From the NCBI GenBank assembly GCA_009746045.1, contig RPFO01000246.1:2845758-2909757 (forward strand): a stretch of 64,000 nucleotides of DNA, in the 5' to 3' direction. Source of the DNA: Mesostigma viride (lineage: Eukaryota; Streptophyta; Mesostigmatophyceae; Mesostigmatales; Mesostigmataceae). How positions within the stretch are numbered: the stretch's first letter is position 1; each line of letters opens with the position of its first letter. The notes beneath the pieces were generated by a model. It saw only the letters and a list, made by a program, of their open reading frames with translations. It did not search any database and was not told the origin of the DNA. A program made the translations under genes and the position numbers. Positions 40,750 to 62,507 of the stretch are shown here, piece after piece.

Positions 40750-40773
40750 GCCGGGCCCACTTCGAATGTTCCG
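40750..40773 (+). repeat. Giant-1 left terminal inverted repeat
   Basis: 24 bp, identical in reverse complement to 62484-62507. A second, looser block (aagtgtgtgacacttttcc, 40784-40802) matches aaaagtgtgacacttttcg at the right end. Confidence 0.88.
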
Positions 40774-41038
40774 CGGTCCAAGCCAAGTGTGTGACACTTT
40801 TCCTTCAATTTTGATGTAAAAATCTTGAATTTTGGCTTGCGAACGTATAAATTTCACGTAAATATTACAATTTGTGGGTATTTATCTCATTGTAAGTCTC
40901 GTGTGACATAAAAACTTTACATTAGCGTGAAATTGCATTGTTTCATTGAAGAATATCATGGATACATTCGTCGCACTTGAGACGGAGTCGACTGAATTTA
41001 CTAAAGACTCGTCCAACATAAAATAAAGTCTTCGAACG

Positions 41039-41571
41039 TCACTTCTTATTCTTGCTCCTTGCTTCTGCTTCCAATTTCTGCTCTTCTGTTTTGGACTTCT
41101 TCCTCTTTGGATCGATGGACATCGCAGGTGCCCACTTTGCCACATCATTCCAACTCTTTCCGTCCATCAGAGTCACCACCTTCTTCACATAGTCCAAAGG
41201 CATCCAGAACTTGCCCCGATGCAACTTTCCGCCCTCTGTCTCTTCTGGAAAAAACTTCATGCAAACGTCCCTCCATTTCCGATCGTATCCACCTACCTGC
41301 CCGTACAACTTCACCTCCTGTAACTTGGTATACTTTTGCTTTTCCCTACTCGCATTGGCCCTTCTCATGGTGTTCTCGGCCCACCCATCAATCCAGAAGC
41401 ACTCCGGTGCTCCGTGTTTCTGTTCCCCGTCCATAAGTCTCATCCACAGCGTAGGCTTCTCATAATAAGGCTCTTGGCTCTGCGCATTCGCTTCCACCCC
41501 TTCAGACTGAGCAGTAAGTTTAGCTGCAGGACCGAAGCCCACCGCAGCGTTCGCCCGCACCACATCATTAC
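41039..41571 (-). CDS. Giant-1 leftward gene, last exon
   Basis: Acceptor cgcgcag at 41573-41572. The split Gly codon joins exactly to the preceding exon (one base plus two). Encodes NDVVRANAAVGFGPAAKL, EKPTLWMRLMDGEQKHGAPE, FWIDGWAENTMRRANASR and FWMPLDYVKKVVTLMDG, and ends in a Lys-rich RSKNKK-stop at 41039. No family recognised. It is preceded by an intron of about 116 bases. Confidence 0.6.
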
Positions 41572-41687
41572 CTGCGCGTAACCAATCGGCACATCAACGA
41601 CGGACTAAAGTCAACGTAGATAGATTGCAAACGAATTAAAAAAAAAATTCAGGATACATGCCACGACCAAAACAGCGATTTCCTCAC

Positions 41688-44046
41688 CCTTTGTTATTCC
41701 TTTCGGAGCTCGAGTAGCAGCTGTCTTGGGTCGAGACGAGCCGGAAGACTTGGAGGGCGCGGCAGGCTTCTTCCTCCCCTCAGACGTCGCTCTGCGAGTT
41801 GACCCTCCTGCCCCTCCACCCCTTGCCCTTCCATCACCCCTTCGCCTCCCTCCATCTTCCTCCTCCTCGTCGTCATCCCCGTCCTCCTCCTCCTCCCCCT
41901 CCTCCTCCTCCTCCTCCTCCTCCTCCTCCTCCTCCTCCTCCTCCTCCTCCTCCTCCTCCTCCTCCTCCTCCTCCTCCTCCTCCTCCTCCTCCTCCTCCTC
42001 CTCCTCCCCCTCCTCCCCCTCCTCCCCCTCCTCCCCCTCCTCCCCCTCCTCCCCCTCCTCCCCCTCCTCCTCCTCCTCCTCGGAGGAGGAGGATGATGAT
42101 GACTCGACTGGCTGCCTTCGAAGCTCTTTCTTGGGATACTTTGAAACGCGCGTAGGCGCGGAAGGAGCGACAGGCCGGGCAGAAGCGCCAGGCTCAGCTT
42201 CATCTTCGTCGTCCGAGATTTGAACAACTGCCTTTCGAAGCTTTTTGGAAGGGTGTGACTCCGGCTGCGGCTGGACAGACGGCCGCTGCCCACCCTTCCC
42301 TTTGTCCCGCGTCTTCTGCGGTGACGACTTCTCTCCCCCCTTAGACGTCTTCTGCGGTGACGACTTCTCTCCCCCCGTAGACGTCGCTCTGCGAGTCGAC
42401 CCTCCTTCCTTTCCCTGTCCCTCGCCTCCCTCGTCCCCATCCGAATCTCCTTCCGCGTCATCCTCAGCCTTCCTCTTCTTCGCCAATGACGTCCACGAGA
42501 CGTCAGGCATCTTCCCCATCCGAACCAGTAAGTCTTCGAAGCCATCCAATGACTTCTTTCCGCCAAAAACGACCACGATGGGACGCAACTCCCAGAAAAA
42601 CTGCGTCGCTAGCTCGATAAGCTTCCTGTGGTAACCGGAAGCTCGTTCGACAGTTGTCTTTTTTGGAGGAACCATAAAGAGGTCATGGTCACCCCACCAG
42701 AAGTCCTTGAAGGACGTCCACTTGCGGCCGAACTCACCATCCAAATTCAGGATTCTACAGCACGGTAGTGGCGTCAGGCCATCGTCTTGCCTCGCGAAAG
42801 TGGATGGGAAGCCCTCACCGTCGCCCACCGCCACCTCCGCCGCCACCCTCCTCACAAATGCCTTCTTCCTGTCAGGGCCGCCTTTAGGGAGACTATGAGA
42901 AGAATACCAGACGGTCATCTTATCCCAGGAAATGCTGCGCCAGTTATACTCAATCGGCTCAGCACTTTTCTCTTCCACCTTCTCCCCCCCTTTCCCTGCA
43001 ACTTTCTCCTTCGCCTCAACAACCGCCTCCTTCTTCCCTTCCCCTCCTTCCATCTTTTTTTGATAGTGGAGATACAAGTCCTTGTCCAGAAGGCCGTGCG
43101 AACCCTTCATGCTGAAGTTCGGAGCGGTTTTGTCGAGGAGATCCACTAGATCGATTTTGCTATCCATCAGATCCTTTCTCGGAATCCTTAGGTGATTGGC
43201 AAGACCTTCGGACTTTAAGAGGTAGGCGACATTGCGCGTGATGATGACGGCCTTCTCCCAAAATGCAAGGAATCGATCGACGACGTCCTTGTTCCTTGGC
43301 ATCCGCCCAAGTAGTCGACAGCCGAACACCTCTTCAAATAAGCGAGAAGCCTTGTACTCCATATCAGCCCCCCCCTTACATTCGCCATCCAAGTCGGGCT
43401 TTTCCTGAAACTTAATAAGGATGAATTGGCGAACGCACTCAAGTACGTCCTTGGCCAACTCCACCAACTTTGACAGCTTTTCGGGCCCAACCTCCCCACT
43501 CATGATGCATTCACACACAGCGTCCATCATCGGAAACGACGCCAGGTTCCTTACAGACGTCCAGGACACCTTTTGCCCCTTCTTGGTGCCCTCGGCGTTA
43601 GCGAACCGGCATCTGAGAGTCATAGTCTCCTCAGAAGCTGGTGTGACGTCATTCTCATCATCCGGCCTGGCCTTTGTGAGGCGCAGGAAGGTGTTCGCCA
43701 GAACTCGATTGTAATTTGAAATTTGGGAAGGTTGGGCCTTGTTTTTTTTCCGCTCGCCTTCTTCCTCCCTCAACTCCCCCTTATCCTCCTTACTCCCCTC
43801 CAAACTCCCTTCCCTCCCGACTGATTGTTTGGTGGCCGGCAGGATGTACGCCAGCAGGTTCGTGTAATGGCCATCGGGAATAAAATGCCCTTTGCCCTGC
43901 TTCACGACGCCGTGCAAGTACAGCCTGTTGTAATTCCAAACATCCAGAAGCGCCTGCCCAAGCGTCCGATCCGCTACCGCCTGATCTTCGGCATTGGCGC
44001 CCTTGGAGATTTCGAATAGGCGATCCAGCTTCTTCTTCCCAACCTC
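41688..44046 (-). CDS. Giant-1 leftward gene, large exon with poly-Glu tract
   Basis: Acceptor gtgacag before 44046 (EVGKKKLDRLFEISKGANAE) and donor g|gtgagg after 41688; phases agree on both sides. The N-terminal half is globular-looking (TLGQALLDVWNYNRLYLHGV, ASFPMMDAVCECIMSGEVG, FWEKAVIITRNVAYLLKSEG). A Trp-rich block follows (YNWRSISWDKMTVWYSSH, WTSFKDFWWGDHDLFMVPPK, IELATQFFWELRPIVVVFGG). The C-terminal third is low-complexity Ser/Lys/Glu with a Glu run of about 60 residues. I recognise no catalytic family; the Trp-rich block is the part to search. Confidence 0.6.
41850..42090. repeat. (CTC)n run inside coding exon
   Basis: Long TCC/CTC trinucleotide run with regular CCCCTC variants, reading as poly-Glu with Gly-Glu-Glu in the leftward gene. 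It resembles the non-coding run at 3924-4107. Confidence 0.9.
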
Positions 44047-44168
44047 CTGTCACGAACAGAGGAACGAAAAATTGACACACAAGAACAATTCAAGGGTCGA
44101 CTTGCAGCGTGACGTTATGAACGCACGGGAGCGCGAAAAATGGTCTTCAGCGCCGAAATCGGTAAGTT

Positions 44169-44190
44169 AGGGTCACTCTGCGAAACCACC
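44169..44190. repeat. Intronic palindrome (type GGGTCACTCTGC..)
   Basis: Agggtcactctgcgaaaccaccc. It lies upstream of the large exon, within the intron 44047-44378, as does another copy at 44287-44307 (ggtcactccacagtgcgaccc). Confidence 0.6.
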
Positions 44191-44378
44191 CCAGAAATAT
44201 GTCGGGATGAGAGTTTGACTGCCATTGTCGTTTCTGTGTGCGACTTCCCGCATTTATAATGCATGATAAAGGAAGACTTTTGACATGGTCACTCCACAGT
44301 GCGACCCTTACTCGACATAACACGACGAAGTGGTGGAACTGCAGCGTCACCATTGCCATAGATAGAACTACCACTTAC

Positions 44379-45539
44379 AGATATTTCCGGGAACTTTTTA
44401 CACTCGTCCCAATTTGGAAGAAGGTCGGCCCCCCGAAGCAGAATGACGTTCGTTCCCCCGTACCCAGTATGGAATTGTTCCATAAGGGATGAGAAAAGTT
44501 TAGCCGCCGCGGCACTGTCCTTCGCGTTCTCAGACGCTGCCCCCCCTTCACACATTAGTTTCTTAACATGTGTCACACCGGGCGTCCATTCCCCCTCCAA
44601 TTGCTTGAAAGACTTTAAACCCTTGAAATAGTGGTTTCCGTCGACCACCGCATATCGAAGAACGAGATATTCGCCATCAGGATGTTCTTCGTGAAATCTT
44701 GGGTCGAATGCCTTTAAGGAGGCCTGGCTTATTAGGCTGAAGACCTCCCTTGGTTGAAAATCAAAGGGCAGAACGTCGTCTTGTTCCCCGACTCGTGCAT
44801 AGGTCCGGAACTCAACACCTCTCTTGAGGAAAGAAGCGGTGGACTTGGTTCCAAGATACTTCTCAATCTCCTTGTCGGACAAGGGGCGAAAGTAACGCGA
44901 GCCCACGAACTCCGCGTCAGTCCTAGCGCCATGGCATTTTTTCAGCCAATCCCGGTAAGGGCCGGTGGACGTGATGTGTTTGGCGAAGAGGCTTGGCTTG
45001 GTTTCCGCAAGCGCTTGAAAGGCGAACTGCCACACAGGGATGCACACCTTAAAATGCAAACTGTTTGTCTTTGCATTCAGCAAGATGCGCCCGTTCTCCC
45101 TGAACACCTCATCGCTTAGCAACCGCTGCCTCATGTTGTCAGGCAAAATCAGCCCGTTGACGGTGTGAATGCGCATGCTATTGCAACCGGTATCGATGAA
45201 GTCACTCGGTCGAATCCAACGGGATTCCCGCACAGCATTCGCGTCCCGAATGGCTTTGTCCCTGATCTCCTTCTCGGAGTCCACGGTCGTTGCCATCTTC
45301 CAATCTTTGATGATCGGCTCCTTGTCCACCTTTCCACTACTCGTCAGGATCCCCTCCTTGAAGAGCTTTGAAAGTGCTTTCAGAAGCTCAAGAAAAGGGG
45401 AGAAGGTAGGCCACTTTAATATATCCGACGCCGGCGCCTTGCCCCTGGCTTCGACGTAGTTAAGCATCTCCTTGACGAGTGCAAAAACGGCATCATTGCC
45501 GGCCAACCTTCCGTCACCGTCTCCTTCCCCCTCGGCACC
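44379..45539 (-). CDS. Giant-1 leftward gene, exon with ParB-like DGNH motif
   Basis: Acceptor cgttcag before 45539 (GAEGEGDGDGRLAGN) and donor gtaagt after 44379; phase 0 on both sides. Contains KWPTFSPFLELLKALSKLFK, SRWIRPSDFIDTGCNSMRIH, CIPVWQFAFQALAETKPSLF and YLVLRYAVVDGNHYFKGLKS (about 44620-44660). The last has the sense of the ParB/sulfiredoxin-fold motif (VVDGNHR-like), a nucleotide-binding or nuclease fold, but His is followed by Tyr, not Arg. This is a weak motif match and not an assignment. About 387 residues. Confidence 0.6.
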
Positions 45540-45657
45540 CTGAACGAAGGCATTGACGAACATGAGACAAGAAAGCAATAAATAGTTAACGTATGCATAT
45601 AGTCCGCGAGCGTAGGAAAATCTCAGAGTAGGGTGCTAAGAACACAGAAGGTAAAAA

Positions 45658-45680
45658 GGGTCACTCCACGGAGCTACCCC
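45658..45680. repeat. Intronic palindrome
   Basis: gggtcactccacggagctaccc in the intron 45540-45707. A paralogous copy at 45888-45910 lies in the next intron. Confidence 0.6.
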
Positions 45681-45707
45681 TCTGAATCTAAATCACCAAA
45701 AACGCAC

Positions 45708-45770
45708 CGCTTCCTTTTCTCCCGCCTTCTTCCCCTTCTTTCCTTTTCCGCCTTTCTCCCCCTCGCCACC
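45708..45770 (-). CDS. Giant-1 leftward gene, 21-codon Lys/Gly exon
   Basis: Acceptor ctccag, donor gtgcgt, exactly 63 bases, phase 0: GGEGEKGGKGKKGKKAGEKE. It duplicates the end of the following upstream exon. Confidence 0.55.
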
Positions 45771-45939
45771 CTGGAGGAAGGCATTGACAAGATGAGACAG
45801 GAAAACAATAAATAGTTTAACGTTTGCAAATAGTCGGCGTGCAGACAAAAAATCCGAATAGGGTGCAAAGCACGGAGAAGGTAAAAAGGTTCACTCCACA
45901 GAGCTACCCCTCTAAATCTAAATTCCGCAAAAAACGCAC

Positions 45940-46447
45940 CTCTTCCTTTTCTCCCGCCTTCTTCCCCTTCTTTCCCTTCCCGCCCTTCTCCCCCCGGCCG
46001 CGTCATCCTCCCCCTTATCCTTCCCCTTCTCCTTTTTATCCGCATCCCTCTTCTTTTTGGAATCTTTTGCCTGACCCTCAAGCAGCTTCGCCCGTTCACG
46101 ATCCCTTCTCTTGAGATCCACTTCATGAACTTGATGACCTTGTCCACCTTCGCCTCCGTGTACGCCTTTGGTTTCCACTTGAACTTTTCGGTGCCCTTGG
46201 ACTTGACTTGGTTGACAAAATCATAGGCCAGGTCACCGTTGAAGGTGTCGGCGCCTTGCATTGCGAAATCGGCCGCCGCCTCAACGCGTAGTTGGGTGAG
46301 ATACTTGCGAAACTCCCCGGCACCCATCGTAACATCCTTAGGGGGATTGCCTAGGATGAGTTCGCCAATATCACAGGCAGTCTGCACCTTCTTCCTTCTG
46401 GCAATAAGCTTTAGGTAAGCTGCTTGGAGTGTCGTCGTCGCCTTTTT
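45940..46447 (-). CDS. Giant-1 leftward gene, exon with frameshifts
   Basis: Reads TTLQAAYLKLIARRKKVQTA, GAGEFRKYLTQLRVEAAADF, YDFVNQVKSKGTEKFKWKPK and KVDKVIKFMKWISR. After a shift near 46125 it reads DRERAKLLEGQAKDSKKKRD, then after another in a G run near 46000, GEKGGKGKKGKKAGEKEE. A run of seven A at the exon start also breaks frame. Homopolymer-associated shifts suggest either sequencing error or decay. Confidence 0.45.
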
Positions 46448-46586
46448 TTAGCCTGCTGGAAGGTATACCAACAACACACAACATACACATGAAGCGAAAT
46501 GTATTAAGAAGAATAATCTGCACTCTGGCATCCTAGCTCTGCAGCGCGACCTTCAGCGTTATAAACTTAAAAAACATTGCACAAAC

Positions 46587-46720
46587 CTTTGCCTTCCCTT
46601 CCCCTTCGGAGTTGGCTCGGGCTCATTTTCTTCCTCCTCCTCCTCCTCCTCGTGCTCCTCCTCCTCTTCCTCCTCGTCCACCTCCTGCTCCTTCTCCTCC
46701 TCTTCCTTCTCGTCCACCTC
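46587..46720 (-). CDS. Giant-1 leftward gene, Glu-rich exon
   Basis: Acceptor catgcag, donor gtttgt. Encodes EVDEKEEEEKEQEVDEEEEE, further Glu/His residues and PTPKGKGRQ. A palindrome (ctctgcagcgcgacc, 46536-46551) lies in the next intron and another (ttgctctgcggagcgacccc, 46791-46811) in the intron upstream. Confidence 0.45.
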
Positions 46721-46849
46721 CTGCATGAAAAAAAAATAATAATAATTCAGACGATGACATAAAAAAAACGAGCATTAATTTTGTTTTAACGTTGCTCTGC
46801 GGAGCGACCCCAACCCTGCTTGAACAGTAAAATGAAACAAATTTCCTAC

Positions 46850-46903
46850 CTCTACGTTCTCCGTCCCCATCCCTTCGACCTCTTCGAAAGGTTGATCGTC
46901 GTC
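46850..46903 (-). CDS. Giant-1 leftward gene, 18-codon acidic exon
   Basis: Acceptor cttgcag, donor gtagga, 54 bases: DDDQPFEEVEGMGTENVE. Phase 0. A further possible exon lies at 47018-47070 (acceptor cgccag, donor gtaagc), but its phase does not fit. Confidence 0.4.
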
Positions 46904-47187
46904 CTGCAAGACGAAACGTGCGTTCAGATAAATATACAAAGTCAGTCAAAACAGGAAGTATTTCTTGAATATCCTATCTTCACAAATCGACCCGAACCTT
47001 TAGCGGCATTTGCTTACCTCCGGTTCCACGCTGAAGGACTTTGTCCCTCAAAACATGGAATGTCACCCTCCTGGCGGGAAGTAGAGCAAGAAATGCGTTC
47101 ATCGTTAGTAACAATTTTCAACAAAAGAAATACACAACACTAATCTAAACGGACTGAATAAAAATGTACACAAATGTCAATAATTAC

Positions 47188-48268
47188 CTCAATGTCAAAT
47201 CTCCACTCCCGCAACACTTGTCCGATCGGCCACATCTCAGATGGAGTTGTGTGGCTCAGTTCGTTTTCGAAAAACGTCCGAAGAAAAAACAAGTGAGATA
47301 GCATGTCCTGACTCCATGATTTCTCGTTTATGTTCGCCGTCACTAACGACAGGCAGTCGTCGATCCCCTTGTACTCAAGCCATGCGACAACCTCCTTTCG
47401 TGGGGGCTCATACTGTCCGGCCATGTCGAACTCCCCACTCTGACGAAAACGCAGGATCTCATCCTCGCACAACTGAAGAAACAATTCAACAGCTCGACTC
47501 GGAAGAATAGGGTCTGGGTTCACCCTAAACTGCGCCATCCACACTGAATACGACGAAAGGAAGTGCGATCTAACCCCATCCAAATCTTCAATCACTTCCG
47601 AACCAGCCCTGAACAACTCGGGAGATACCGAGTGGTCCATGGCGATCAGAAAGTCGCCGAAGACATCCCAGTCGAACTGTGCAGCCTTGAACCCTTTCTT
47701 CAAGAGCAGATTGACATCCGTTTCCGTCAGCGGGGAGGTGTCCCAATCCTCACCTGTCTTCCCCTGCTCTAGGACCTGGTACATTTCCCACCTGCAGACA
47801 GATATGATGATGTCAAAATACTCGTGTGACAATGGGTGCTGTCTCGTGTCCTTGCAGTACTGTTTGGTCGCACAAGACAGCTTGATCCAGACGAGCAGGC
47901 TTCGAGGAACATAAGCTGTAACATCCACTGCGTCGGGTATATTCGACCCGCACTCGGTAACAAGCAACTCGAAGGTGTCGAAGAGAGATGCCATTTCTTC
48001 CCCTTCACCTTTTGCCTCTAAGGCTCCGCCCCATGACTTCGAACAAAAAGGCACGAAGACCAGATTCACTCCAAGGGTTCATTATCTCATCAGGCCTGGC
48101 CATATCATGTATTACTTCCATCCTCTCATGCCAGACACCGTCATCGATCGCAACTTCGATCTCCTTCGACACAAAGGTGCTCAAGAACGACTTGGCGTCA
48201 TCGTTCAGATGTTTTTCGTAAGTCGTCAACCATGACTTCCAAGTTTCCAAGCCCCTCAACTGGATCGG
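47188..48268 (-). CDS. Giant-1 leftward gene, about 360-codon exon
   Basis: Acceptor gtgtgcag before 48268 (PIQLRGLETWKSWLTTYEKH), donor gtaatt after 47188 (WRFDIE). One frameshift near 48020, between MGRSLRG and EGEEMASLFDTF. Helical, globular composition: SKEIEVAIDDGVWHERMEVI, DVTAYVPRSLLVWIKLSCAT, EYFDIIISVCRWEMYQVLEQ, FGDFLIAMDHSVSPELFRAG, KSWSQDMLSHLFFLRTFFEN. No family recognised. Confidence 0.55.
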
Positions 48269-48319
48269 CTGCACACAGGTCCACAAAACGAAACAAAAGC
48301 ATAATCGGAAAAAAAGTTT

Positions 48320-48343
48320 AGGGTCACTCTGCGAAGTGACCCT
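48320..48343. repeat. Intronic palindrome
   Basis: agggtcactctgcgaagtgaccct: each arm GGGTCACT/AGTGACCC. It lies in the intron between 48268 and 48419. Confidence 0.75.
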
Positions 48344-48418
48344 TCATAAAAAAATCTCAAACAGAACGAACGACTAACTGACATGCACTATGAAGCGGCG
48401 AAAAAATTATTAGCTCAC

Positions 48419-48490
48419 CCGCAATTTCTCCTCCCCACTCCCAACCTCGGCGTTCCCCTGAGACTCTGTCTCATCTCCCCCTTTCTTCCT
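48419..48490 (-). CDS. Giant-1 leftward gene, 24-codon exon
   Basis: Acceptor gcatccag, donor gtgagc, 72 bases, phase 0: RKKGGDETESQGNAEVGSGE and EKLR. It has the same RK-start and acidic style as the next upstream exon, suggesting exon duplication. Confidence 0.55.
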
Positions 48491-48535
48491 CTGGATGCAG
48501 CAAGACAGAGGAAAGCATACTCGTTGAAAAAGTTT

Positions 48536-48659: not shown

Positions 48660-48722
48660 CTCCGTTGTTGTCCCGCTCTTCTTGGGATCCTCTGACTTCT
48701 TTTCGTCTGCCCCCCGCTTCCT
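48660..48722 (-). CDS. Giant-1 leftward gene, 21-codon exon
   Basis: Acceptor gatttcag, donor gtgagc, 63 bases, phase 0: RKRGADEKKSEDPKKSGTTT plus E. Confidence 0.55.
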
Positions 48723-48881: not shown

Positions 48882-50354
48882 CTGAGACGGCTCCGTACCC
48901 TCCTTCTCCGAGACCCCCGCGGTCTTCCCATCCACCTCCGTCGACTTTTCTGCAGCCTGCGCCTTCCTGCGCTCCTCCTCAAGTTTGGCTTGGTATTTCA
49001 GGCGTGCCGCCACACCCGCCTCCATCATCCTCTTCCCCTCCTCCTGCACCTTCCTCTTCGCCTTTGCCTCCTCGTCCTTCTTTTTCCTTTCCTCATTCGC
49101 CTTTCTCTCCTTTTCGTCCCGCTCCCACGACGCCCTCCTCTTCCTGCGCTCCGCCTCCTCCATCTCCGCAGCTTCCATTTCTGCCTGCTTCGCCTCTCGC
49201 TCTGCCCTTTCCTTCTTCACCCATTCCCTCTGCTCCCTTTCCAGGAGCTCCTGGGCGGCCTTCCGTTCCTTGTCCTTTTTCTCCAGATTCACCAGATCTT
49301 CGGCGTGCTGCGTTGCCTGATCCAGATAAGAAGTCAGAAGTGCCATGCGGTCATTCCTTCTCTTTCTTTCCTCCTCCGGAAGATCCTCCAGTGGCCTTGG
49401 GTCTGCCTTGTCCCTGTCCTCCATGCTGATCAGGAGGTCAATGTTCTTCTGCAGATCACGCAGGAACCGCTCATGGTCATCCTCCTTCTCCTCCCATTCC
49501 GCTCTTGCTTTCTTTCTTGCCTGTGGGGAGCGGCTCCTCGGAGGTGAGTTTGACGACCGGCGCTTGGGTGGCGACCGGCGCTTGGGCGGAGACTTCCGAC
49601 CGTGAGACTTTGCAGGCGACTTGGGCGGTGATCGGGACTTGGAGGTCGCCCCCTTCTTTGGAGGGGAGCTTTGGGGAGACGCGGGCTGCGAGCTGGGCTG
49701 TGAGGTCGAGGCCTCGGGTAGGGACCTTGAAGGAGACCTGGGCGACGTGCTGACCTTCGAGGTCGAAGCCTCGTGGTGGGACCTTAGAGGTGACTTGGGC
49801 GGCGGGCTGCCCTGCTCAGACGCCTCGTGGTGGGCCCTTGGAGAAGACTTGGGCGGCGAGCTGGGCTTCGAGGTAACCACCTCGACGGGGGCGGACCTCG
49901 GCGAGTTTGAGGTCGACTTCCCGAGGACGGGGGACTCCTTGTTGATGGCGGGCCGCTGGGGAGACTGTGGAGACACAACGGAGCTGGACCCAGCCCCGGC
50001 AGCCTGTGCCTCAGGTGCGGGCCGCTGAGGAGACTGTGGAGACACAACGGAGCTGGACCCAGCCCCGGCAGCCTGTGCCTCAGGTGCGGGCCGCTTGGGA
50101 GATTTGGAGGCCGACGCCTCCACGGAGCTTGGCCCAGCCCCGGCAGCAAGCATTGTTGACAGAGGAGGAAACTCCTCTACGCCCTTGGGCGGAGAGGCGG
50201 GTGGCGTACTATACTTAGGAGACTCGCTCGTCGACTTGACCTTGTCGACATAGGTGGCCCTCTCCACCTCTTTTCCCTTCTGAAGCAAGGAGGCCCTCTC
50301 CTGCTCCTCCTTTTCCTTCTGAAGCTGAACTTCCCTCTCCTTCTCTTGTTCCTT
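48882..50354 (-). CDS. Giant-1 leftward gene, 491-codon Ser/Pro/Lys-rich and coiled-coil exon
   Basis: Acceptor tgccgcag before 50354 (KEQEKEREVQLQKEKEEQER) and donor gtgaga after 48882; 1473 bases, phase 0. The N-terminal Glu/Lys/Gln coiled coil is followed by Ser-Pro repeats, including a tandem RPAPEAQAAGAGSSSVVSPQ duplication, an SR/RS-like part (SPPKRRSPPKRRSSNSPPRS) and a long charged helix (RKRRASWERDEKERKANEER). It resembles nuclear SR-type or scaffold proteins in composition only. The real start codon must lie in an exon further right; none was found with confidence. Confidence 0.6.
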
Positions 50355-50446: not shown

Positions 50447-50518
50447 TAAGAAGAAACAAGGATGAAATCCCATTCAGGTTTGGGAAAAAAAAAATCGAAG
50501 ATGTAACTTTTATAAACG

Positions 50519-51030
50519 TATCTGGAAAGGGTGACTCGGCAGCGCGACCTTACAACACAAATGTGATTGAATAACGTATCTTGGAAAGGTCACTCGGACG
50601 CGCTACCCTACAAACAAAATGTTATTGAATAACGTATCTGGAAAGGGTGACTCTGCAGCACTACCCTACAAACAAAATGTTATTGAATAACGTATCTGGA
50701 AAGGGTGACTCTGCAACGCGACCCTACAACCAAAATGTGATTGAATAACGTATCTTGGAAAGGTGACTCTGCAGCGCTACCCTACAAACAAAATGTTATT
50801 GAATAACGTATCCGGAAAGGGTGACTCTGCATCGCGACCCTACAACCAAAATGTGATTGAATAACGTATCTTGGAAAGGTGACTCTGCAGCGCGACCCTA
50901 CAAACAAAATGTTATTGAATAACGTATCTTGGAAAGGTGACTCTGCAGCGCGACCCTACCAACAAAATGTTATTGAATAACGCATCTTGGAAAGGTGACT
51001 CTGCAGCGCGACCCTACAAACACTGAATGG
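50519..51030. repeat. 58 bp tandem array built on the palindrome
   Basis: About nine units starting at 50519, 50577, 50635, 50693, 50751, 50809, 50867, 50925 and 50983, each with the palindrome (ggtgactctgcagcgcgaccc or variant) followed by tacaaacaaaatgttattga. Isolated palindromes follow at 51046-51070 and 51104-51128. Confidence 0.9.
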
Positions 51031-51162
51031 AAGTTTGCATTGTGAGGGGGTCACTCTGCAGCGCGACCTTACAAACAAAGACTGCGACATTGCGCAAGGG
51101 TAGGGGTCACTCTGCAGAGCGACCCTACCCAAAAACAATACTAACCACTCCCCAAAAAAATC

Positions 51163-53712
51163 ACGCATGGATGGTGGTGGTGGGTGGCTGGCATGCATGG
51201 ATGGTGGTGGTGGGTGGCTGGCACGCATGGATGGTGGTGGTGGGTGGCTGGCACGCATGGATGGTGGTGGTGGGTGGCTGGCACGCATGGATGGTGGTGG
51301 TGGGTGGCTGGCATGCATGGATGGTGGTGGTGGGGTGCTGGCATGCATGGATGGTGGTGGTGGGTGCTGGCATGCATGGATGGTGGTGGTGGGGTGCTGG
51401 CATGCATGGATGGTGGTGGTGGGTGGCTGGCATGCATGGATGGTGGTGGTGGGGTGCTGGCATGCATGGATGGTGGTGGTGGGTGGCTGGCATGCATGGA
51501 TGGTGGTGGTGGGTGGCTGGCATGCATGGATGGTGGTGGTGGGTGCTGGCATGCATGGATGATGGTGGTGGGTGCTGGCATGCATGGATGGTGGTGGTGG
51601 GTGGCTGGCACGCATGGATGGTGGTGGTGGGTGGCTGGCATGCATGGATGGTGGTGGTGGGTGGCTGGCACGCATGGATGGTGGTGGTGGGTGGCTGGCA
51701 CGCATGGATGATGGTGGTGGGGTGCTGGCACGCATGGATGGTGGTGGTGGGTGGCTGGCACGCATGGATGATGGTGGTGGGTGGCTGGCATGCATGGATG
51801 GTGGTGGTGGGGTGCTGGCACGCATGGATGGTGGTGGTGGGGTGCTGGCATGCATGGATGATGGTGGTGGGTGCTGGCATGCATGGATGGTGGTGGTGGG
51901 TGCTGGCACGCATGGATGGTGGTGGTGGGTGCTGGCATGCATGGATGATGGTGGTGGGTGCTGGCATGCATGGATGGTGGTGGTGGGTGGCTGGCACGCA
52001 TGATGGATGGTGGTGGTGGGTGCTGGCATGCATGGATGGTGGTGGTGGGTGGCTGGCACGCATGGATGTGGTGGTGGGTGGCTGGCATGCATGGATGGTG
52101 GTGGTGGGGTGCTGGCACGCATGGATGGTGGTGGTGGGTGCTGGCATGCATGGATGGTGGTGGGGTGCTGGCATGCATGGATGGTGGTGGTGGGTGGCTG
52201 GCATGCATGGATGATGGTGGTGGGGTGCTGGCATGCATGGATGGTGGTGGTGGGTGCTGGCATGCATGGATGATGGTGGTGGGTGCTGGCATGCATGGAT
52301 GGTGGTGGTGGGTGGCTGGCACGCATGGATGATGGTGGTGGGTGGCTGGCACGCATGGATGGTGGTGGTGGGTGGCTGGCACGCATGGATGGTGGTGGGT
52401 GGCTGGCACGCATGGATGGTGGTGGTGGGTGGCTGGCACGCATGGATGGTGGTGGTGGGTGGCTGGCACGCATGGATGATGGTGGTGGGGTGCTGGCACG
52501 CATGGATGGTGGTGGTGGGTGGCTGGCACGCATGGATGATGGTGGTGGGTGGCTGGCATGCATGGATGGTGGTGGTGGGGTGCTGGCACGCATGGATGGT
52601 GGTGGTGGGGTGCTGGCATGCATGGATGATGGTGGTGGGTGCTGGCATGCATGGATGGTGGTGGTGGGTGCTGGCATGCATGGATGGTGGTGGTGGGTGG
52701 CTGGCACGCATGGATGATGGTGGTGGGGTGCTGGCATGCATGGATGGTGGTGGTGGGTGGCTGGCACGCATGGATGGTGGTGGTGGGTGGCTGGCACGCA
52801 TGGATGGTGGTGGTGGGTGGCTGGCAGCATGGATGGTGGTGGTGGGTGGCTGGCACGCATGGATGGTGGTGGTGGGTGGCTGGCACGCATGGATGATGGT
52901 GGTGGGTGGCTGGCACGCATGGATGATGGTGGTGGGTGGCTGGCACGCATGGATGGTGGTGGTGGGTGGCTGGCACGCATGGATGGTGGTGGTGGGGTGC
53001 TGGCATGCATGGATGATGGTGGTGGGGTGCTGGCATGCATGGATGGTGGTGGTGGGTGGCTGGCACGCATGGATGGTGGTGGTGGGTGCTGGCATGCATG
53101 GATGGTGGTGGTGGGTGGCTGGCACGCATGGATGGTGGTGGTGGGTGGCTGGCACGCATGGATGGTGGTGGTGGGTGCTGGCATGCATGGATGATGGTGG
53201 TGGGGTGCTGGCATGCATGGATGGTGGTGGTGGGTGGCTGGCACGCATGGATGGTGGTGGTGGGGTGCTGGCATGCATGGATGGTGGTGGTGGGTGGCTG
53301 GCACGCATGGATGATGGTGGTGGGTGGCTGGCATGCATGGATGGTGGTGGTGGGGTGCTGGCACGCATGGATGGTGGTGGTGGGGTGCTGGCATGCATGG
53401 ATGATGGTGGTGGGGTGCTGGCATGCATGGATGGTGGTGGTGGGGTGCTGGCACGCATGGATGGTGGTGGTGGGGTGCTGGCATGCATGGATGGTGGTGG
53501 TGGGTGGCTGGCACGCATGGATGGTGGTGGTGGGTGGCTGGCACGCATGGATGGTGGTGGTGGGGTGCTGGCATGCATGGATGATGGTGGTGGGGTGCTG
53601 GCATGCATGGATGGTGGTGGTGGGTGGCTGGCACGCATGGATGGTGGTGGTGGGTGGCTGGCACGCATGGATGATGGTGGTGGGGTGCTGGCATGCATGG
53701 ATGGTGGTGGTG
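51163..53712. repeat. 29-30 bp minisatellite, about 2.55 kb
   Basis: Unit approximately GCATGCATGGATGGTGGTGG followed by TGGGTGGCTG, with 28, 29, 30 and 31 bp versions (t/c in CATGCATGG/CACGCATGG, gtgctg/ggctgg, gatgg/gatga); some 85-90 units. No unit contains a stop in any frame, so 400-960-residue frames exist on both strands. Mixed unit lengths scramble the frame, which argues against coding. Confidence 0.95.
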
Positions 53713-54215
53713 GACATATCGCTGGCTGAGGACCAACACGAAAAAAGAAGCCATATCGCTGGCTGAGGACCAACACGAAAAAAGAAAACATATCGCTGGC
53801 TGACGACCAACACGAAAAAAGAAAACATATCGCTGGCTGACGACCAACACGAAAAAAGAAAACATTTAGCTGGCTTAGGACCAACACGAAAAAAGAAAAC
53901 ATTTAGCTGGCAGAGGACCAATACGAAAAAATACTCTGGTCGCTCGCTGAGGACCAACCCTTAAAAAGAAGCCGTGTCGCTGGCTGAGGACCAACACGAA
54001 AAAAGAAAACATATTGCTGGCTGAGGACCAACCCTAAAAAAGAAGGCATATCGCTGGCTGAGGACCAACACGAAAAAAGAAGCCATGTCGCTGGCTGAGG
54101 ACCAACCCTTAAAAAGAAGGCATATCGCTGGCCGAGAACCAACCAGAAAAAAGAAGTCATGTCGCTGGCTGAGGACCAACACGAAAAAACAAGCCATATC
54201 GCTGGCTGAGGACTA
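53713..54215. repeat. 37 bp tandem array
   Basis: About 13 units of catatcgctggctgaggacc followed by aacacgaaaaaagaaaa, adjoining the minisatellite. No palindrome inside. Confidence 0.88.
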
Positions 54216-54902: not shown

Positions 54903-54929
54903 CCACCAGTCGTCACTCTGCAAAGCGAC

Positions 54930-55458
54930 GTGCCTACTGCCACGTGGTATGGCAAAAATTTCGAATGCAGAACTTTTGGGGTATACAAATAAATATATTC
55001 ATGAATCGGGTATAGTAAATGTATGGGGATATATACTAACATGCTAGCCAATATATTTATACTTTCTGCTGTCCATATGCTTATTATTATGATTATTGTT
55101 ATGAATATGATATATGTTCTTTCTAATATTTGTTAAATATATTTTCCTATTTACTGCTAACTTACTGTACTAGTTTTTTATATAAATGACTAGTACTAGA
55201 TAGATTAATGCCATGAATACAAATTTAAAATATTGATTAAATTTTATGACAATATTACATATATTTATGGACATCACTCTTTTTTTCATACAATAAGTAG
55301 AAAATATTTAGTATTAGAGATAGCTAGTCTGTCCAGTTCATATTTCTTCTATCTAAACAATAATGATTGTAATAGAAATAGTACTAAATACTAATTAAAA
55401 CTATATAAATACCAATAAATACTTTCCATATTTCTGCTACATAATTAAACAATAATGA
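54930..55458. other. AT-rich spacer
   Basis: Very AT-rich, with no coding frame or repeat recognised. It is cut on its right by the TTAA element. Confidence 0.5.
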
Positions 55459-55462
55459 TTAA

Positions 55463-57183: not shown

Positions 57184-57355
57184 TAAAACAATTATGTTCA
57201 ATATTCAATTTCATTTAGTAGAATCTTAAATAATTCCATGAATTAATTCACGTATTTTCCTGTCTTGGTGTGATCATCCAGGTACCTCGATCGGCAACGA
57301 CACGACACGCCTGAAAAATGAGCCGGGAAGGTGTGTTTCCAATGATGCAAATCTT

Positions 57356-57375
57356 GGTCGCGCTGCAGCGCGACC
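57356..57375. repeat. Perfect 20 bp palindrome
   Basis: GGTCGCGCTGCAGCGCGACC, fully self-complementary, upstream of the transposase gene. Further copies at 57427-57447 and 57521-57543 precede the first recognised exon. Confidence 0.85.
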
Positions 57376-57588
57376 TCTTCTCAGTTCCATACGAAAAGGC
57401 CTTAAAACTTGTGTGTAACTTCGCAAGGGTCGCGCTGCAGAGCTACCAAAAATTTCATGAAGTTTGACTTTCTCTATATTTGCTTCGCAATTGAGATTCT
57501 TTTGTATCTGCGAAGAAGGTGGGGTCATTTCGCGGAGTGACCCTGCTAATATGTAAATTTTTCCGTGAATTTCTTTTTGTTTCTGCAG

Positions 57589-59114
57589 CACGGGAACGGG
57601 TGTTTCTTTCGCCAACCTCCTCCTCCTTGCGTGGCGGCTTTGCTAATCGACTCAATGCCCACAACTTGAGCATCGGGACACCGACGCCCCTTGCAGCGGA
57701 TCTGAAAAACAGCTCGAAACGAAATTTCGGGAATGAGAACCGCAGCACCTCGCCCGCCTTCAGGAAGCCAGCGAAAAGGCCTGGCCAGTACGCCGAGAAG
57801 AAGTCTGTTGTGGGGACTCATCTTGCTGATGAGGCGTACAACGTAGTTCATCACATGAGGAATGAATCTACCAAGCGGGCCTCTTTTGAGGAGATTGTTG
57901 ATGGCTTCAATAAGAGGGCTGACGAGCTCAAGGCGGAGCATTTTGACATTCCGGTGGCCAAGCTTTTTGATGAGCAGCGGCTTGCACAACTGTCGAGGTC
58001 TTGGGTGGCTCGGCTGATCGCCCTTTTTGACGACCTGTCGAAATCCGACCATGACAGAGACGTCAAGATCATTTTGGTGTCAACTCTTTTTTGTGGGGAC
58101 GACATCGAGAAGGAGTTTTCGGCGGCAGAGTTGGAGAGAATGACGGGTGTCCCCGCGAAGACCATTCTCAAAGTTCGGGCGATCAGAAAGCAACAGAAGA
58201 TGGAGTTCCTGACGCGTGCGCTGGCGCGAAAGAAGAGGAAGTTGCCCCAATTTGTAATCGAGTCGATCGCGCAGGCTTGGACTGATGAGGAGAACTCGCG
58301 CGCTTCGCCCCAAGAGAGGGATACCATAAAGACGCACGAACGAGTTGGCAATCGTGCGATTTTGGTTGGTGTCCAAGGGGCCTACTTCTACCTCACCTCG
58401 AAGGAGGACATATATCTCAAGTTTTTAGCGGAGCACACGTACTGGGACAAGAAAAGTCCGCAGTATGAGAAGGATGTCGGCATCCATGTCGGATATACGA
58501 CTTTCTGCAAGTACGCCCCCAAAACCGTCAAGGGGAAGTGGAAGGAGAGAAACGTGTGCGCCTGTGAGACGCATACGGTCATGCAGTCGAAGGTAGCGGC
58601 ATGGACTAGGTACTGCAAGGCGAAGCACGGCAAGAACTGCAAGTGCGGCGACGAGTGTGAGGGATGTTTAAGGGCGAGATTGCCTGACGGCACGTGCGGG
58701 ATGTTCGAAAGCCTGCACACGACCGAATGGGTGAAGCACTTCCATTGCCGTGTGGCGGAGGCGGATGGGGGAAGTGAGCTGGGGGGTGGGGCAAACTCGG
58801 CGAGAAACGAAGAGGAGGAAGGGGACAATAATGTGACGGAAGATGAATGGCAGGGGCAAGACCTTGACGATCTTGAAATAAATGAGAGGATCGTGGAGGA
58901 TGAGGAAGGGGTGCCAAGGGTAGGGGACCCATCCATGGAGGAGGGGTCTGTCTTTCGCATTCTGAAGAGGGCATGTATGGAGAACTCGTGTCCCGAGTCC
59001 CGGTGTGGCATCAAAGACTGGGTGTTGTGTGACCGGGACAAGAATTCAACAGAACTACTAAATTGGTTCAGATACGTGAAGAAGGAGGTAGTGGTTTCCC
59101 GACCGGCAGGGGAG
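57589..59114 (+). CDS. Giant-1 transposase, exon A (N-terminal region)
   Basis: Acceptor tttctgcag before 57589 and donor gtaagc after 59114; it starts inside a codon, so an upstream exon exists. Encodes a Lys/Arg-rich start (RPGQYAEKK), a helical region (FEEIVDGFNKRADELKAEHF, LARKKRKLPQFVIESIAQAW) and RNVCACETHTVMQSKVAAW. A Cys-rich stretch (CKCGDECEGC) precedes an acidic linker and CMENSCPESRCGIKDWVLCD. Such an N-terminal Cys cluster before the catalytic core is also what I recall for the animal transposase-like family noted in exon B. Confidence 0.7.
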
Positions 59115-59151
59115 GTAAGCGTGTTTGGATTTTGTGACGCAATTATTTCGC

Positions 59152-59175
59152 AGCGTCATTCTGCAGCGCGATGTT
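59152..59175. repeat. Intronic palindrome in the transposase gene
   Basis: gcgtcattctgcagcgcgatg in the 132-base intron 59115-59246; a weaker palindrome than the others. Confidence 0.5.
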
Positions 59176-59246
59176 AATTTAAAGGCTTTTCTGATACTTT
59201 ATGAATATGTTACTTGCAAATTTACTTCATCCCTTGGTTAAAACAG

Positions 59247-60020
59247 GACGCGACCGATCGGCGGGTCCCGGAGAAGGTCAAGCGGCCCGTACAGGAAACG
59301 ATGAGGTCAACGCCCGCGCAGCTGAGGCTGGCGATTATCGAGAGTTGGGAGGACTTTACCAACCACTGCTTTACGTCATGGTGGCAGTCGGCAACGATCA
59401 AGGACCGGGAGAGGAACATGACTGAGGGGGATGTGCTCGTGCATGGAGATTGGGCCGAGAATTACGAGAACAACAACTACGTCCAACTGCAGTCGCAGTA
59501 CTTTCACAAGACGAGCTTTGTCCTCATGCCCATGATCGTGCGATATTTGCACAATGGTGCGATGGCAAAGCGAACGTTCTTTTTTCTCGGGGAAGCCAAG
59601 ATGAAGCGGGGAGAGCGGGCGCTCGTCTACGCGCTGAGGACAATCATGGAAACCCTGCGCGGACTTGGTGTGGGGGTGAAGAGGATGTTCATGTGCTCTG
59701 ACAACTGCTCATCCCAGTTCAAGTCCAAGTACGTGGTTAACGCCGTCTTCCGCCTCCTCATGCAGGATCCCGACTTGGAATCCTTCGAGTACCACTACTT
59801 GGGTGAGCAGCACGGGAAGGGGGAGGTGGATGGTCAGGGAGCGAAGTTCAAGTGCATTGTGAGGAACATGCAATGCATTCCTGAGAACCAGGGCATCGTT
59901 ACAGGGCGCCAGATCGTCAAGTACATGCGGGACAGCTGGGAAGGAGGCAAAACCACGAGCAGGGAGTCGGCCCGCGCTCGGGCAGAGGGCGTCCACCGTC
60001 ATTTCTTTCATTTTCCTGAG
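59247..60020 (+). CDS. Giant-1 transposase, exon B (catalytic core)
   Basis: Acceptor aaaacag, donor gtgcga, phase 0. Candidate catalytic blocks are VLVHGDWAENYENNNYVQLQ (first D), KRMFMCSDNCSSQFKSKYVV (second D) and YLGEQHGKGEVDGQGAKFKC (third acidic). The order D, SDxxxxQ(F/Y)K and HGKGxxDGxG matches a family of large animal transposase-like proteins that carry FAENF, SDGxxxQYKN and HGKGxxDGxGG motifs. This is from memory, with no search run. Predicted RNase H-fold strand-transfer enzyme for Giant-1. Confidence 0.75.
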
Positions 60021-60171
60021 GTGCGAAACTCAATTTTTCTTGAACTTGATTGAGGTATCTCTGCAGAGTGACCTTTTGCCCATTTGCATTTTATTATTTG
60101 ATAATGCTAAAAGAACTGGTATGAATTAGCGTCTTATATAGTGAAAAATGCATGCAAAGCACTTTCAAAGG

Positions 60172-60192
60172 GGTATCTCTGCAGAGTGACCC
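60172..60192. repeat. Intronic palindromes in the transposase gene
   Basis: ggggtatctctgcagagtgaccc; a second copy, tatctctgcagagtgacc, is at 60056-60074. Both lie in the intron 60021-60257. Confidence 0.65.
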
Positions 60193-60257
60193 TTCATGTG
60201 TACTTGATCTATTGACACATACCAACTTTCCGTTTCTGACATTCTCCCTCATTGCAG

Positions 60258-61001
60258 GACCTCGACTCCGGCGCCCGTATGATACCGACGCGTGTCGAGG
60301 CCATCAAGCAAGCGCACTGGTGGCGCCTGGACAAGTCTGACCCGGGGCTCCTGATGATGAGGCGTTTTTCGTGCTACTGCCCAGCCTGCCTAGCTAACAG
60401 GTGGGAGGAGTGCCGGACCGAGTGGACACATATCGAGGAATTTAACGATGAGGGCCAAACGATGAAAACTTTCCGCCTGATGCCGCCAACGCAGCCCATA
60501 CCTCCGGTTCGCCAGCTGACGCGGGCGGAACTGCTGAAGGATCAAAGGGATGCCATTGGCAGGCAGATGCGCATGTATGATTACATCGCAGTTCCGTCAG
60601 ACAGAGAGGACGTGAACCACAATTCCGCCCACCCTTTTTGGGTGATGCAGGTGGTGAGGGAGGCCTCAGTGCTGGAGAAGGAGGAGGTTAGGTGGGTTGA
60701 GGGACAAAACGGACGGCAGAAGGAGATTTTCTTGCCCGGCCACGCCGTTCTGGCGGTTCGGCTGTGGAAGCGAGATATGCATGACCCCCTGCATTTTACT
60801 CTGGATTTGGCTGATTGGCCGGAGTCCCGCCCAGCCGACCTGGTCGATTGCTATCTGTGCATCTCCGCTGCTCTTCCGCTCCAGTGCATGGTCCTTGGCA
60901 ACCAAAGGCAAGCCTACGTTGATATGAGCAAGGAGCTTGACGCGTGGCTAACCGCTCTTGTACGCAACCAGCAAGCCCCGGAGGGGCTGCCACCGGCTTA
61001 A
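60258..61001 (+). CDS. Giant-1 transposase, exon C (C-terminal region)
   Basis: Acceptor cattgcag, phase 0, stop TAA at 60999-61001. Has ALVYALR-like continuity from exon B, then RRFSCYCPACLANRWEECRT (a Cys-x2-Cys knuckle), LMPPTQPIPPVRQLTRAEL, YDYIAVPSDREDVNHNSAHP and LHFTLDLADWPESRPADLVD. The fold of the C-terminus is unknown. A palindrome (61009-61032, ggggacgctccgcagcgccaccc) lies just after the stop. Confidence 0.65.
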   Translation, partial: DLDSGARMIPTRVEAIKQAHWWRLDKSDPGLLMMRRFSCYCPACLANRWEECRTEWTHIEEFNDEGQTMKTFRLMPPTQPIPPVRQLTRAELLKDQRDAIGRQMRMYDYIAVPSDREDVNHNSAHPFWVMQVVREASVLEKEEVRWVEGQNGRQKEIFLPGHAVLAVRLWKRDMHDPLHFTLDLADWPESRPADLVDCYLCISAALPLQCMVLGNQRQAYVDMSKELDAWLTALVRNQQAPEGLPPA

Positions 61002-61498
61002 ACTTTCGGGGACGCTCCGCAGCGCCACCCCTACGGATCTTTAAGCCTGGGCTTTATTCGCCTACGGTTGGGACAGTGTTTATTCGTGTTTATATATTTT
61101 TGGAGAACATTTTTTTGTTTTTTCATATGTTACATTAGATGACAAGTGGCTGGGAACATTGTTAGCCTCGGTAGTGACAAATTTTAGTATATTTCCGTGT
61201 CGAAATGGCGAGTATTTTATTTAACTTGTACAATAATTATTTCGAATTACAAATTTATAATTTGGTTTGACCTAAAAATCATGTCGTCACTCAAATATAG
61301 TAGTTGCTGTGTAGGACTTTCCGTCTGCAAATTGGTTCGTACTAATTTCGAATGTCACAACAATGTTACTGTACTAAGGCCTGTTTGGTAGATGTCTTAA
61401 AACACAAATTCGCTCCGGAAGTGCCAAAGTACCTTGCTTGTAACCGGACTAGTTACGAATTGTGATTGGAAGGTTGTCCCCTACAACCACAAGGAATA

Positions 61499-61523
61499 GA
61501 GGGGACGCTCCGCAGCGCCACCC
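61499..61523. repeat. Palindrome between transposase and small gene
   Basis: aggggacgctccgcagcgccaccc, nearly identical to 61009-61032. Between them (61033-61498) I see no gene. Confidence 0.7.
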
Positions 61524-61597
61524 ATACGACAGTCCGGACCGGGCTTTGCTGAAATAATTTTCTCACTCGCAACTTAGCCATCAAACTCACTTTTACG

Positions 61598-62070
61598 ATG
61601 GAGCGCGCCGATGTTTTTGGTTCGCAGCATACATATGTGCATGTCGATAAAAAGGAGCATGCGGCCAACATGTATGTTGAAATCGACTCCCCCCCCACGA
61701 CTTCCCACGCTCCCTGCGGGGACCGTTTGGAGGTTGGGGTTCAGGTGTCATTGCGTTCGGAAACGGGATGATCGACCTGATGCCCCCAGATTCAGATTTG
61801 GCGCCTGCCCCCCGTGTTCCGGGTAAGGCCAGGGTGGTGCAATGCCTCCAGAATGAGGGCACGGAAATTTCGCCCAATGTCTCGGCTGTGCGCCTCCGGG
61901 CTGAGGCCCAGCATGAGTTCTTGAATGCGGCGGAAATAGGTGGGGCCGTATGGGCCCCCAAACAATTTTCCAACGAGCCTCCAAATTTCGTGGGGGACTT
62001 GTACAAGGGAGCGTACAAGTTTCGTGACATTGAGATCGATGGATGGGGGTCATTTCTCCAGGAAAAGTGA
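61598..62070 (+). CDS. Giant-1 small gene, two overlapping ORFs (57 and 100 aa)
   Basis: ATG at 61598 (MERADVFGSQHTYVHVDKKE) ends at a TGA at 61769-61771. The second ATG at 61768 overlaps it as ATGA and runs to 62070 (MIDLMPPDSDLAPAPRVPG; NVSAVRLRAEAQHEFLNAAE; FVGDLYKGAYKFRDIEIDGW). Either one gene with a frameshift or a linked pair. No family recognised. It lies between the transposase and the right end, a usual place for an accessory or regulatory protein. Confidence 0.4.
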
Positions 62071-62339
62071 ATGCCGGTCCCATTTGGCAAATATAATCGA
62101 TGATTAATTCCATGCAACATTTTGCGTTGGTCAAATGTGTAAATTTGCATTATTCATCGATTCAATAAAATTATGGGGGTGGGTATACCCACCATTTGAT
62201 GGTTGAAAGTACTACTAGCTTCGTCGATTAACTCTTCTCAACATGGTCCTCTAGTCGACTAGGATTGTACCAATCCATCAGGGTATCGAGAAACTTGTTA
62301 TGCCGAAACACTCCGGTCGAAAATTTCGTGCCACCTGCA

Positions 62340-62480
62340 GGCAATCAAAAAGCGCACGCGGACCGACGGGAAAGAGTAGTTAGTCACGAAATTAAAAAAA
62401 CGACAAAAAGTGTCACACGCGGCCCGGCGGGAAAGAGTAGTTTGTTACGAAGTTAAAAAAACGACGAAAAGTGTCACACT
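62340..62480. repeat. Giant-1 right subterminal tandem repeat
   Basis: Two units of about 64 bp: cgggaaagagtagtt.gt.acgaa.ttaaaaaaacgac.aaaagtgtcacac. The end of the second unit runs into the TIR. The gtgtcacac block also occurs beside the left TIR, so it may be a transposase-binding motif. Confidence 0.65.
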
Positions 62481-62483
62481 TTT

Positions 62484-62507
62484 CGGAACATTCGAAGTGG
62501 GCCCGGC
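62484..62507 (-). repeat. Giant-1 right terminal inverted repeat
   Basis: Reverse complement of 40750-40773 over 24 bp, followed by CGAGAG at 62508-62513. Confidence 0.88.

Follow-up and report, generated by a model that had tools for sequence, protein, structure and literature searches.

A 20-kb DNA transposon family of Mesostigma viride with three genes and dispersed palindromes that an element protein may bind

A stretch of 64,000 nucleotides from contig RPFO01000246.1 of Mesostigma viride, hereafter the window, contains a 21.8-kb segment that is bounded by short inverted ends and holds several genes. The locus raises the question of what kind of mobile element this is and what its repeated palindromic motifs may do. 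An earlier note, made from the sequence of the window, had described a giant multi-gene DNA transposon with terminal inverted repeats (TIRs), distinct from Polintons and with a combination of genes undescribed in green algae. We find that the element is a cut-and-paste TIR DNA transposon, real and recently multiplied in M. viride. The reading that we prefer, with a probability of about 0.6, is that it belongs to a family of 20-kb DNA transposons, each with three genes (that of the transposase, a small one and a very large one), whose palindromes are bound by a protein of the element. The genome searched comprises 439.9 Mb in 2243 contigs. The accessible part of the genome paper gives for the published NIES-296 assembly 442 Mb in 2363 scaffolds (PacBio reads with Illumina polishing) and a repeat content of 66%, and no element of this sort is described in that part (PMC6947507).

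The element spans positions 40749–62508 of the window; this length includes a nested insertion of 1.7 kb, the undisturbed length being ∼20.0 kb. The exact inverted ends that had been proposed were borne out, at 25 bp instead of 24, one base longer on each side, and had no matches in shuffled sequence. When further copies with the same ends were looked for genome-wide, the exact 20-mer of the end was present at 130 places (60 forward, 70 reverse) and its reversed control at none. Taking 100 listed of these places, we examined 27 convergent pairs of ends, the window included, and inspected eight more single ends. In 27 of 27 pairs a G preceded GCCGGG and a C followed CCCGGC; these bases therefore belong to the ends, which read GGCCGGGCCC... 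in full. The target duplication was an exact 4 bp in 24 pairs. With the terminal G and C invariant, a 6-bp target duplication, as claimed earlier for CGAGAG at this locus, was rejected: six identical bases were found in only six of the 27 pairs, the window among them. The duplications have no fixed sequence (A+T makes up 58 of the 96 bases in the 24 exact duplications), and the base preceding them is C in 16 of 24, a bias that makes false 6-bp repeats more likely.

The three pairs without an exact 4-bp duplication were L009/L010 (ATTA/ACTA), L017/L018 and L061/L062, where L-numbers denote labelled genome stretches at element ends or copies and C-numbers denote contigs; the ends L061/L062, 135.7 kb apart, are probably not those of one copy. 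The two ends were separated by 19.6–37.1 kb in 23 of the 27 pairs, and three of the four longer pairs (51.7, 61.2 and 84.5 kb) still had exact duplications; the 84.5-kb pair encloses ends and a transposase of a sister family (family 2, the family of the window being family 1) and thus contains a nested element. Among the eight single ends, L065 shares its flank with L013; short contigs may thus represent one locus in different versions, and the copies may be overcounted. A 15-base flank is shared by the 42-kb contig C87 and position 968371 of the large scaffold C887, which suggests one locus represented twice in the assembly.

Empty sites were sought by joining the flanks of 25 pairs over one duplication and comparing the joined sequences with the retrieved part of the genome. 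The L013/L014 join aligned unbroken to L001 (97% over 466 bp) and the L047/L048 join to positions 12334–12524 of the window (92%, 191 bp). Both clear empty sites, paralogous and not allelic, break exactly at the element ends; the earlier note had named the lack of a second copy, or breakpoints away from the TIRs, as evidence against the element, which withstood both checks. The L015/L016 and L031/L032 copies sit in a tandem satellite that likewise spans the junction. Three weaker matches of joined flanks were left uncounted: L025/L026 (72 bp, 83–85%), L035/L036 (98 bp, 83%, with a 4-base gap just past the junction) and L055/L056 (113 bp, 83%). For the window copy itself, the idea that its flanks rejoin into a putative LINE ORF1, of which an intact copy would lie ∼1.2 kb away, was not borne out. 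The left flank (40590–40733) is 81–83% alike to 63601–63743, and joining the right flank to it raises the alignment score merely from 191 to 199; the copy at 63.6 kb therefore does not show an empty site and was rejected as one.

Copies of the element are very similar. The half with the transposase is 99.7–99.98% identical to the window in L010, L011, L013, L021, L026 and L028, and the other half is 98.9–99.8% identical in L014, L022, L025 and L027 and ∼98.1% in L009 over the longest piece; these values come from part of the alignments and are lower where low-complexity tracts are counted, and L023/L024 match near the ends only. Exon by exon, identity among copies ranges from 86.6% (the first exon in L015, a gapped copy) to 100%. 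Exon 2 of the transposase, or the larger part of it, is open and 97–100% identical at at least 45 places, 45 of 1621 candidates being scored.

The transposase gene, earlier placed at 57589–61001, was confirmed at 57318–61001. Its four exons on the + strand encode 1018 amino acids, and the spliced product is letter-for-letter identical to the Mesvir1 protein Mv26047-RA.1. The only relatives found among the candidates scored, P0002, at 61% across 72% of the region queried, and P0003, at 40%, are both from Mesostigma and represent family 2 and family 3. Among other invariant residues, the acidic D581, D665 and E706/D708 are invariant in the three families and are likely to be the candidate DDE/D triad. 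The DDE-type label fits these positions, while the RNase H fold stayed unconfirmed, the structure model built from two sequences (pLDDT 31) being too poor for it. Among the 8000 candidates scored in each search we observed no relatives outside Mesostigma at E-value 1e-3, nor at E-value 10 with a two-sequence profile. None appeared in phage records, nor in IMG/VR and GTDB genomes with two peptide patterns each. A sequence search of the Protein Data Bank (PDB) with the transposase alone produced no match and profiles produced one weak match (E 0.41); in Pfam nothing was above cut-off, DUF7869 being below it at E 0.026–0.12. Motifs like D-[FWY]-A-E-N-Y and HGK..DG.G are presumably present in uncharacterised animal proteins.

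Family 2 shows that this gene set is not peculiar to the window family. It was scored at 57 places, and its exact end (GGGTGGTCCCACGCGGAATG) occurs 364 times (none in the control), with a 4-bp target duplication in nine of ten pairs. In a 28.5-kb family-2 stretch, with one end within it, the transposase, the small gene and the large gene follow in the same order and orientation as in family 1. Amino acid identity between the two families is 62–67% for the small gene, 59% for exon K of the large gene, 49% for exon J, 56% for part of exon H and 26–29% for exon D. Six of the listed family-2 pairs have ends only 10.3–10.7 kb apart (C36, C69, C80, C280, C335 and C429); the five tested, C429 not being among them, all have an exact 4-bp duplication, and these pairs are a mobile, shortened subfamily. 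At 24 family-2 places we saw an identical transposase exon, open for 585 residues, with the catalytic exon absent from the listing; L029, the one such copy read, shows the start of the catalytic exon, and the absence may only reflect scoring. Family 3 has 63 scored places and a transposase related at 40%; its one end seen, a related one, reads GGGCGTCCCC. The three families may form a separate transposon lineage so far seen only in Mesostigma, a streptophyte that branched early, in which two of the three families would be 20-kb, three-gene elements.

The large multi-exon gene that had been proposed was confirmed on the strand opposite to the transposase. It extends over ∼9 kb of the − strand, with 11 exons placed by splice signals and open frames; its true start was not found and exon I was not placed. 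Over 300 codons of exon K, differences from family 2 amount to 0.29, 0.27 and 0.55 at the first, second and third codon positions (fourfold sites, 53/77), while exon D, with 0.54, 0.44 and 0.65, is less constrained; the excess of third-position changes fits purifying selection on the large gene. Small indels vary from copy to copy, also in exon D, and may be real or unpolished long-read errors. In exon H such indels cluster at 46046–46460 (92–99.5% identity among copies), whereas exon J next to it shows no difference in five other copies; the clusters look like either assembly noise or a fast region. As for the small gene, its run of C has one extra base in six of ten other copies, is like that of the window in L016, L018 and L028, and is accompanied by other deletions in L023; in family 2 the frame is unbroken. 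No Pfam match above cut-off was seen in the family-2 small gene and large-gene parts. Residues 560–1790 of the concatenated large-protein query had no relatives among the 7999 candidates scored, and nearly all of the 38 matches of exon K in a PDB profile search fell on its acidic low-complexity tail.

Besides the genes, families 1 and 2 have in common a 22-bp palindrome with a CTGCAG core and half-sites of the form GGGTC-R/T-C-N-CTG. With the scan word GTCGCGCTGCAGAGTGAC and up to five mismatches, we observed 33 sites in the element and three in the remaining 42 kb; a first-order Markov control of the same length gave 1.13 sites on average and three at most. With up to four mismatches there were 25 sites inside and none outside. 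Although proposed coding DNA makes up 11.0 of the 21.8 kb, 31 of the 33 sites are noncoding and two coding. The noncoding ones include 16 in proposed introns, 13 upstream of the two divergent genes and two behind the transposase stop. Placement is common to both families: past the transposase stop, in introns 1 and 3 of the transposase gene, in the interval from exon K to exon J of the large gene, and in an array upstream of the recognised part of that gene.

While placement is shared, the sites themselves differ between the families. The family-1 word found 22 sites in family 2, of which those at 17111 and 20497 were dropped as chance before half-sites were counted. Position 6 of the half-site is T in 2/62 half-sites of family 1 and in 39/40 of family 2, or in 2/40 and 23/24 without array members; these half-sites are related to one another and not independent. 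Both halves are changed at this position in 0/20 non-array sites of family 1 versus 11/12 of family 2. The word of family 2 itself found 23 sites in the family-2 stretch. Genome-wide, the perfect family-2 site was found at 393 places (control, none), and 45 of 50 listed lie ≤25 kb inward of a family-2 end, where at most 2% would be expected by chance. For the family-1 pattern there were 191 places (control, none), with 43 of 50 listed ≤25 kb and 46 of 50 ≤40 kb from a family-1 end (upper bounds by chance 0.7% and 1.2%). Sites away from ends were four at C1:685720–686110 and one at C58:518005 for family 2 and, even at 40 kb, one on C246 and three on C477 for family 1.

According to the reading that we prefer, the transposase would cut both ends by RNase-H-type chemistry and insert the element at a 4-bp stagger, and another protein of the element, the product of the large or the small gene and less likely the transposase, would bind the palindromes as a dimer. 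Such binding could, in the manner of VANC in VANDAL elements, maintain expression of the element genes in the face of host silencing, or it could regulate their dosage; anti-silencing would be one of several possible outcomes. Binding by some element protein is, in our view, likely. In Arabidopsis, VANC targets in VANDAL elements are short noncoding motifs, often tandem, that differ between related families, and VANDAL elements resemble the present ones in combining a transposase with a second, fast-diverging protein and in having family-specific motifs dispersed or in tandem in noncoding DNA (accessible part of PMC5735166). Unlike here, the VANC motif is one of 9 bp and not a 22-bp palindrome, no search that we ran found a relationship between the two, and binding and demethylation belong to VANC, whereas here the sites alone were read.

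Several observations weigh against this reading. Scans of parts of the large protein gave no Pfam match above cut-off and did not detect DUF1985, the domain of VANC. The window copy is frame-broken in both the large and the small gene. Because the scan word was picked by eye from the window element, the number of sites within it has an upward bias, though the family-2 result does not. Palindromes with perfect arms, taken as a class, show no higher density in the element, with 30 there and 88 in the remaining 42 kb. Finally, neither the small gene nor the palindrome was found in the 3.6 kb of family-3 element seen, and the system is thus not needed by every member.

CACTA elements have subterminal repeats, and the palindromes could similarly be binding sites that the transposase or an accessory protein needs to synapse or excise so long an element, with no role in silencing. 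That they are family-specific and mostly confined to the element agrees with such a function, and the transposases of families 1 and 2 differ by 39–42%, enough for a change in specificity. Yet the sites are in introns, between genes and past stops, and even the noncoding ones nearest to the ends are 3.3 kb (44096) and 1.0 kb (61504) away. The sites are also unlike the TIRs, and the family-3 part seen has no such site; we consider a synapsis or excision function unlikely. Alternatively, the palindromes may act in RNA, as hairpins in splicing or processing, or may be a passive micro-repeat spread by gene conversion and tandem duplication. The share of noncoding sites in proposed introns (16 of 31, with at least one site in 10 of the 13 introns) would fit, as would the nine noncoding sites in 58-bp tandem units, which spread motifs passively. 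The 13 sites upstream of genes, the two past a stop and the palindrome-free family-3 stretch do not fit, and from passive spread one would expect neither the change of position 6 in both halves nor equivalent places in both families. An origin of the palindromes in RNA function or passive spread is, in our estimate, also improbable.

The question of superfamily can be considered apart from the palindromes. By the features that define them, the element is not a Polinton, a CACTA element or a MULE. Polintons (Mavericks) are of comparable size and have several genes, and the size range is all that speaks for a Polinton or another virus-like element here; the duplication is 6 bp there and 4 bp here, the ends here have 25 bp, ten open reading frames (ORFs) tested, fewer than all six frames hold, gave no Pfam match to polymerase (PolB), integrase or capsid, and the transposase had no match in phage records or IMG/VR. 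We find such an origin highly improbable. The description as a giant multi-gene TIR transposon other than a Polinton thus stands, although the 6-bp duplication on which the comparison with Polintons had been based does not. MuDR/VANDAL elements make 9-bp duplications and encode a MULE transposase, to which no Pfam match above cut-off was found here. The ends of EnSpm/CACTA elements begin with CACTA or CACTG, whereas those of families 1 and 2 start with GGCC and GGGT, and the CACTA transposase domain had no Pfam match above cut-off. The giant CACTA/EnSpm elements of the red alga Chondrus crispus are similar in size (16–20 kb), in having several ORFs (4–5) and in having an algal host (accessible part of the review PMC6431247). 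Size alone therefore has a precedent; the claim that the element is undescribed is otherwise uncontradicted among the matches listed from the open-licence literature in PMC.

A known superfamily with captured cargo, most likely Sola2, is a possibility that we rate below even odds. Sola2, compared by description only, has a transposase of 888 amino acids, 4-bp duplications and short TIRs (accessible part of PMC3627910), and the present element fits in its 4-bp duplications, its short TIRs and a large transposase in the range of ∼0.9–1.0 thousand residues. Yet the Sola2 duplications are AT-rich, unlike the less AT-rich targets here, the element has ∼3 times the length of the 7-kb Sola2 part in that description (PMC3627910), and no relative outside Mesostigma was found among the candidates scored. 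The label of cargo is an unlikely one for genes of which all three recur in two diverged families. It is tentatively suggested, again with the odds somewhat against it, that these elements form a separate transposon lineage in which the large protein reads a family-specific palindrome, an anti-silencing or regulatory system that would be independent of VANC and located at the base of the plant lineage.

The coordinates of all features are given in Table 1. The nested insertion was absent from L010, L011, L013, L021, L026 and L028, the copies in which that place was seen aligned; at the point of the break the uninterrupted L010 reads TGATTAAAAC, which is consistent with a TTAA target. A long central minisatellite was seen in family 2 as well (L075, ∼8.6–12.0 kb of the joined stretch), with a frame that repeats about every 10 residues and a sequence unrelated to that of family 1.

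Table 1. Features of the element in the window (positions are those of the window)
Feature	Position	Strand	Basis or remark
Target duplication GAGA, left copy, 4 bp	40745..40748		flanks of end pairs
Left TIR GGCCGGGCCCACTTCGAATGTTCCG, 25 bp, exact	40749..40773	+	comparison of ends and copies
Large gene, last exon L	41042..41571	−	splice signals, open frame
Large gene, exon K; N-terminal 300 codons conserved, acidic/low-complexity tail	41689..44046	−	60% identity with family 2 in 300 codons
Four palindromic sites between exons J and K	44096..44350		sites there in family 2 also
Large gene, exon J, conserved	44379..45539	−	family 2: 49% overall, 59% in 200 codons
Large gene, exon H, frame varies among copies	45940..46455	−	56% identity with family 2 in one part
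Large gene, exon G, acidic	46587..46720	−	splice signals and open frame only
Large gene, exon F, small	46850..46903	−	splice signals and open frame only
Large gene, exon E, small	47018..47070	−	splice signals and open frame only
Large gene, exon D, with a broken frame in the window copy	47188..48268	−	26–29% amino acid identity with family 2
Large gene, exon C, small	48419..48490	−	splice signals and open frame only
Large gene, exon B, small	48660..48722	−	splice signals and open frame only
Large gene, first recognised exon, S/P- and K/E-rich	48882..50354	−	splice signals, open frame
Tandem array of 58-bp units, one palindrome each, and two more palindromes	50515..51125	−	upstream of recognised part of large gene
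Central 30-bp minisatellite, 85.6 copies	51165..53713		tandem-repeat analysis
37-bp tandem array	53713..54213		tandem-repeat analysis
Nested insertion with own inverted ends TTAACTCGTCGTCTGTCC, not part of element	55463..57183		copies compared
Transposase, exon 1	57318..57330	+	spliced product = annotated protein
Two palindromic sites, transposase intron 1	57357..57446		scan
Transposase, exon 2	57589..59114	+	spliced product; open at at least 45 places
Transposase, exon 3, with presumed catalytic D581, D665, E706/D708	59247..60020	+	invariant in three families
Two palindromic sites, transposase intron 3	60055..60190		scan
Transposase, exon 4 with stop	60258..61001	+	spliced product
Palindromic site just past transposase stop	61011..61028		one at same place in family 2
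Small single-exon gene, ∼150 amino acids, frame broken in C run	61597..62070	+	copies compared; 62–67% amino acid identity with family 2
Right TIR, same 25 bp as left TIR	62484..62508	−	comparison of ends and copies
Target duplication GAGA, right copy, 4 bp	62509..62512		flanks of end pairs

These observations mean that cut-and-paste elements of ∼20 kb can multiply in full length, with copies that are nearly identical, in a genome of the plant lineage, and that a 9-kb accessory gene has been conserved between diverged families of such elements. The dispersed palindromes present a concrete, testable target. If a protein of the element does bind them, they would represent another anti-silencing or regulatory code of transposons, far from Arabidopsis.

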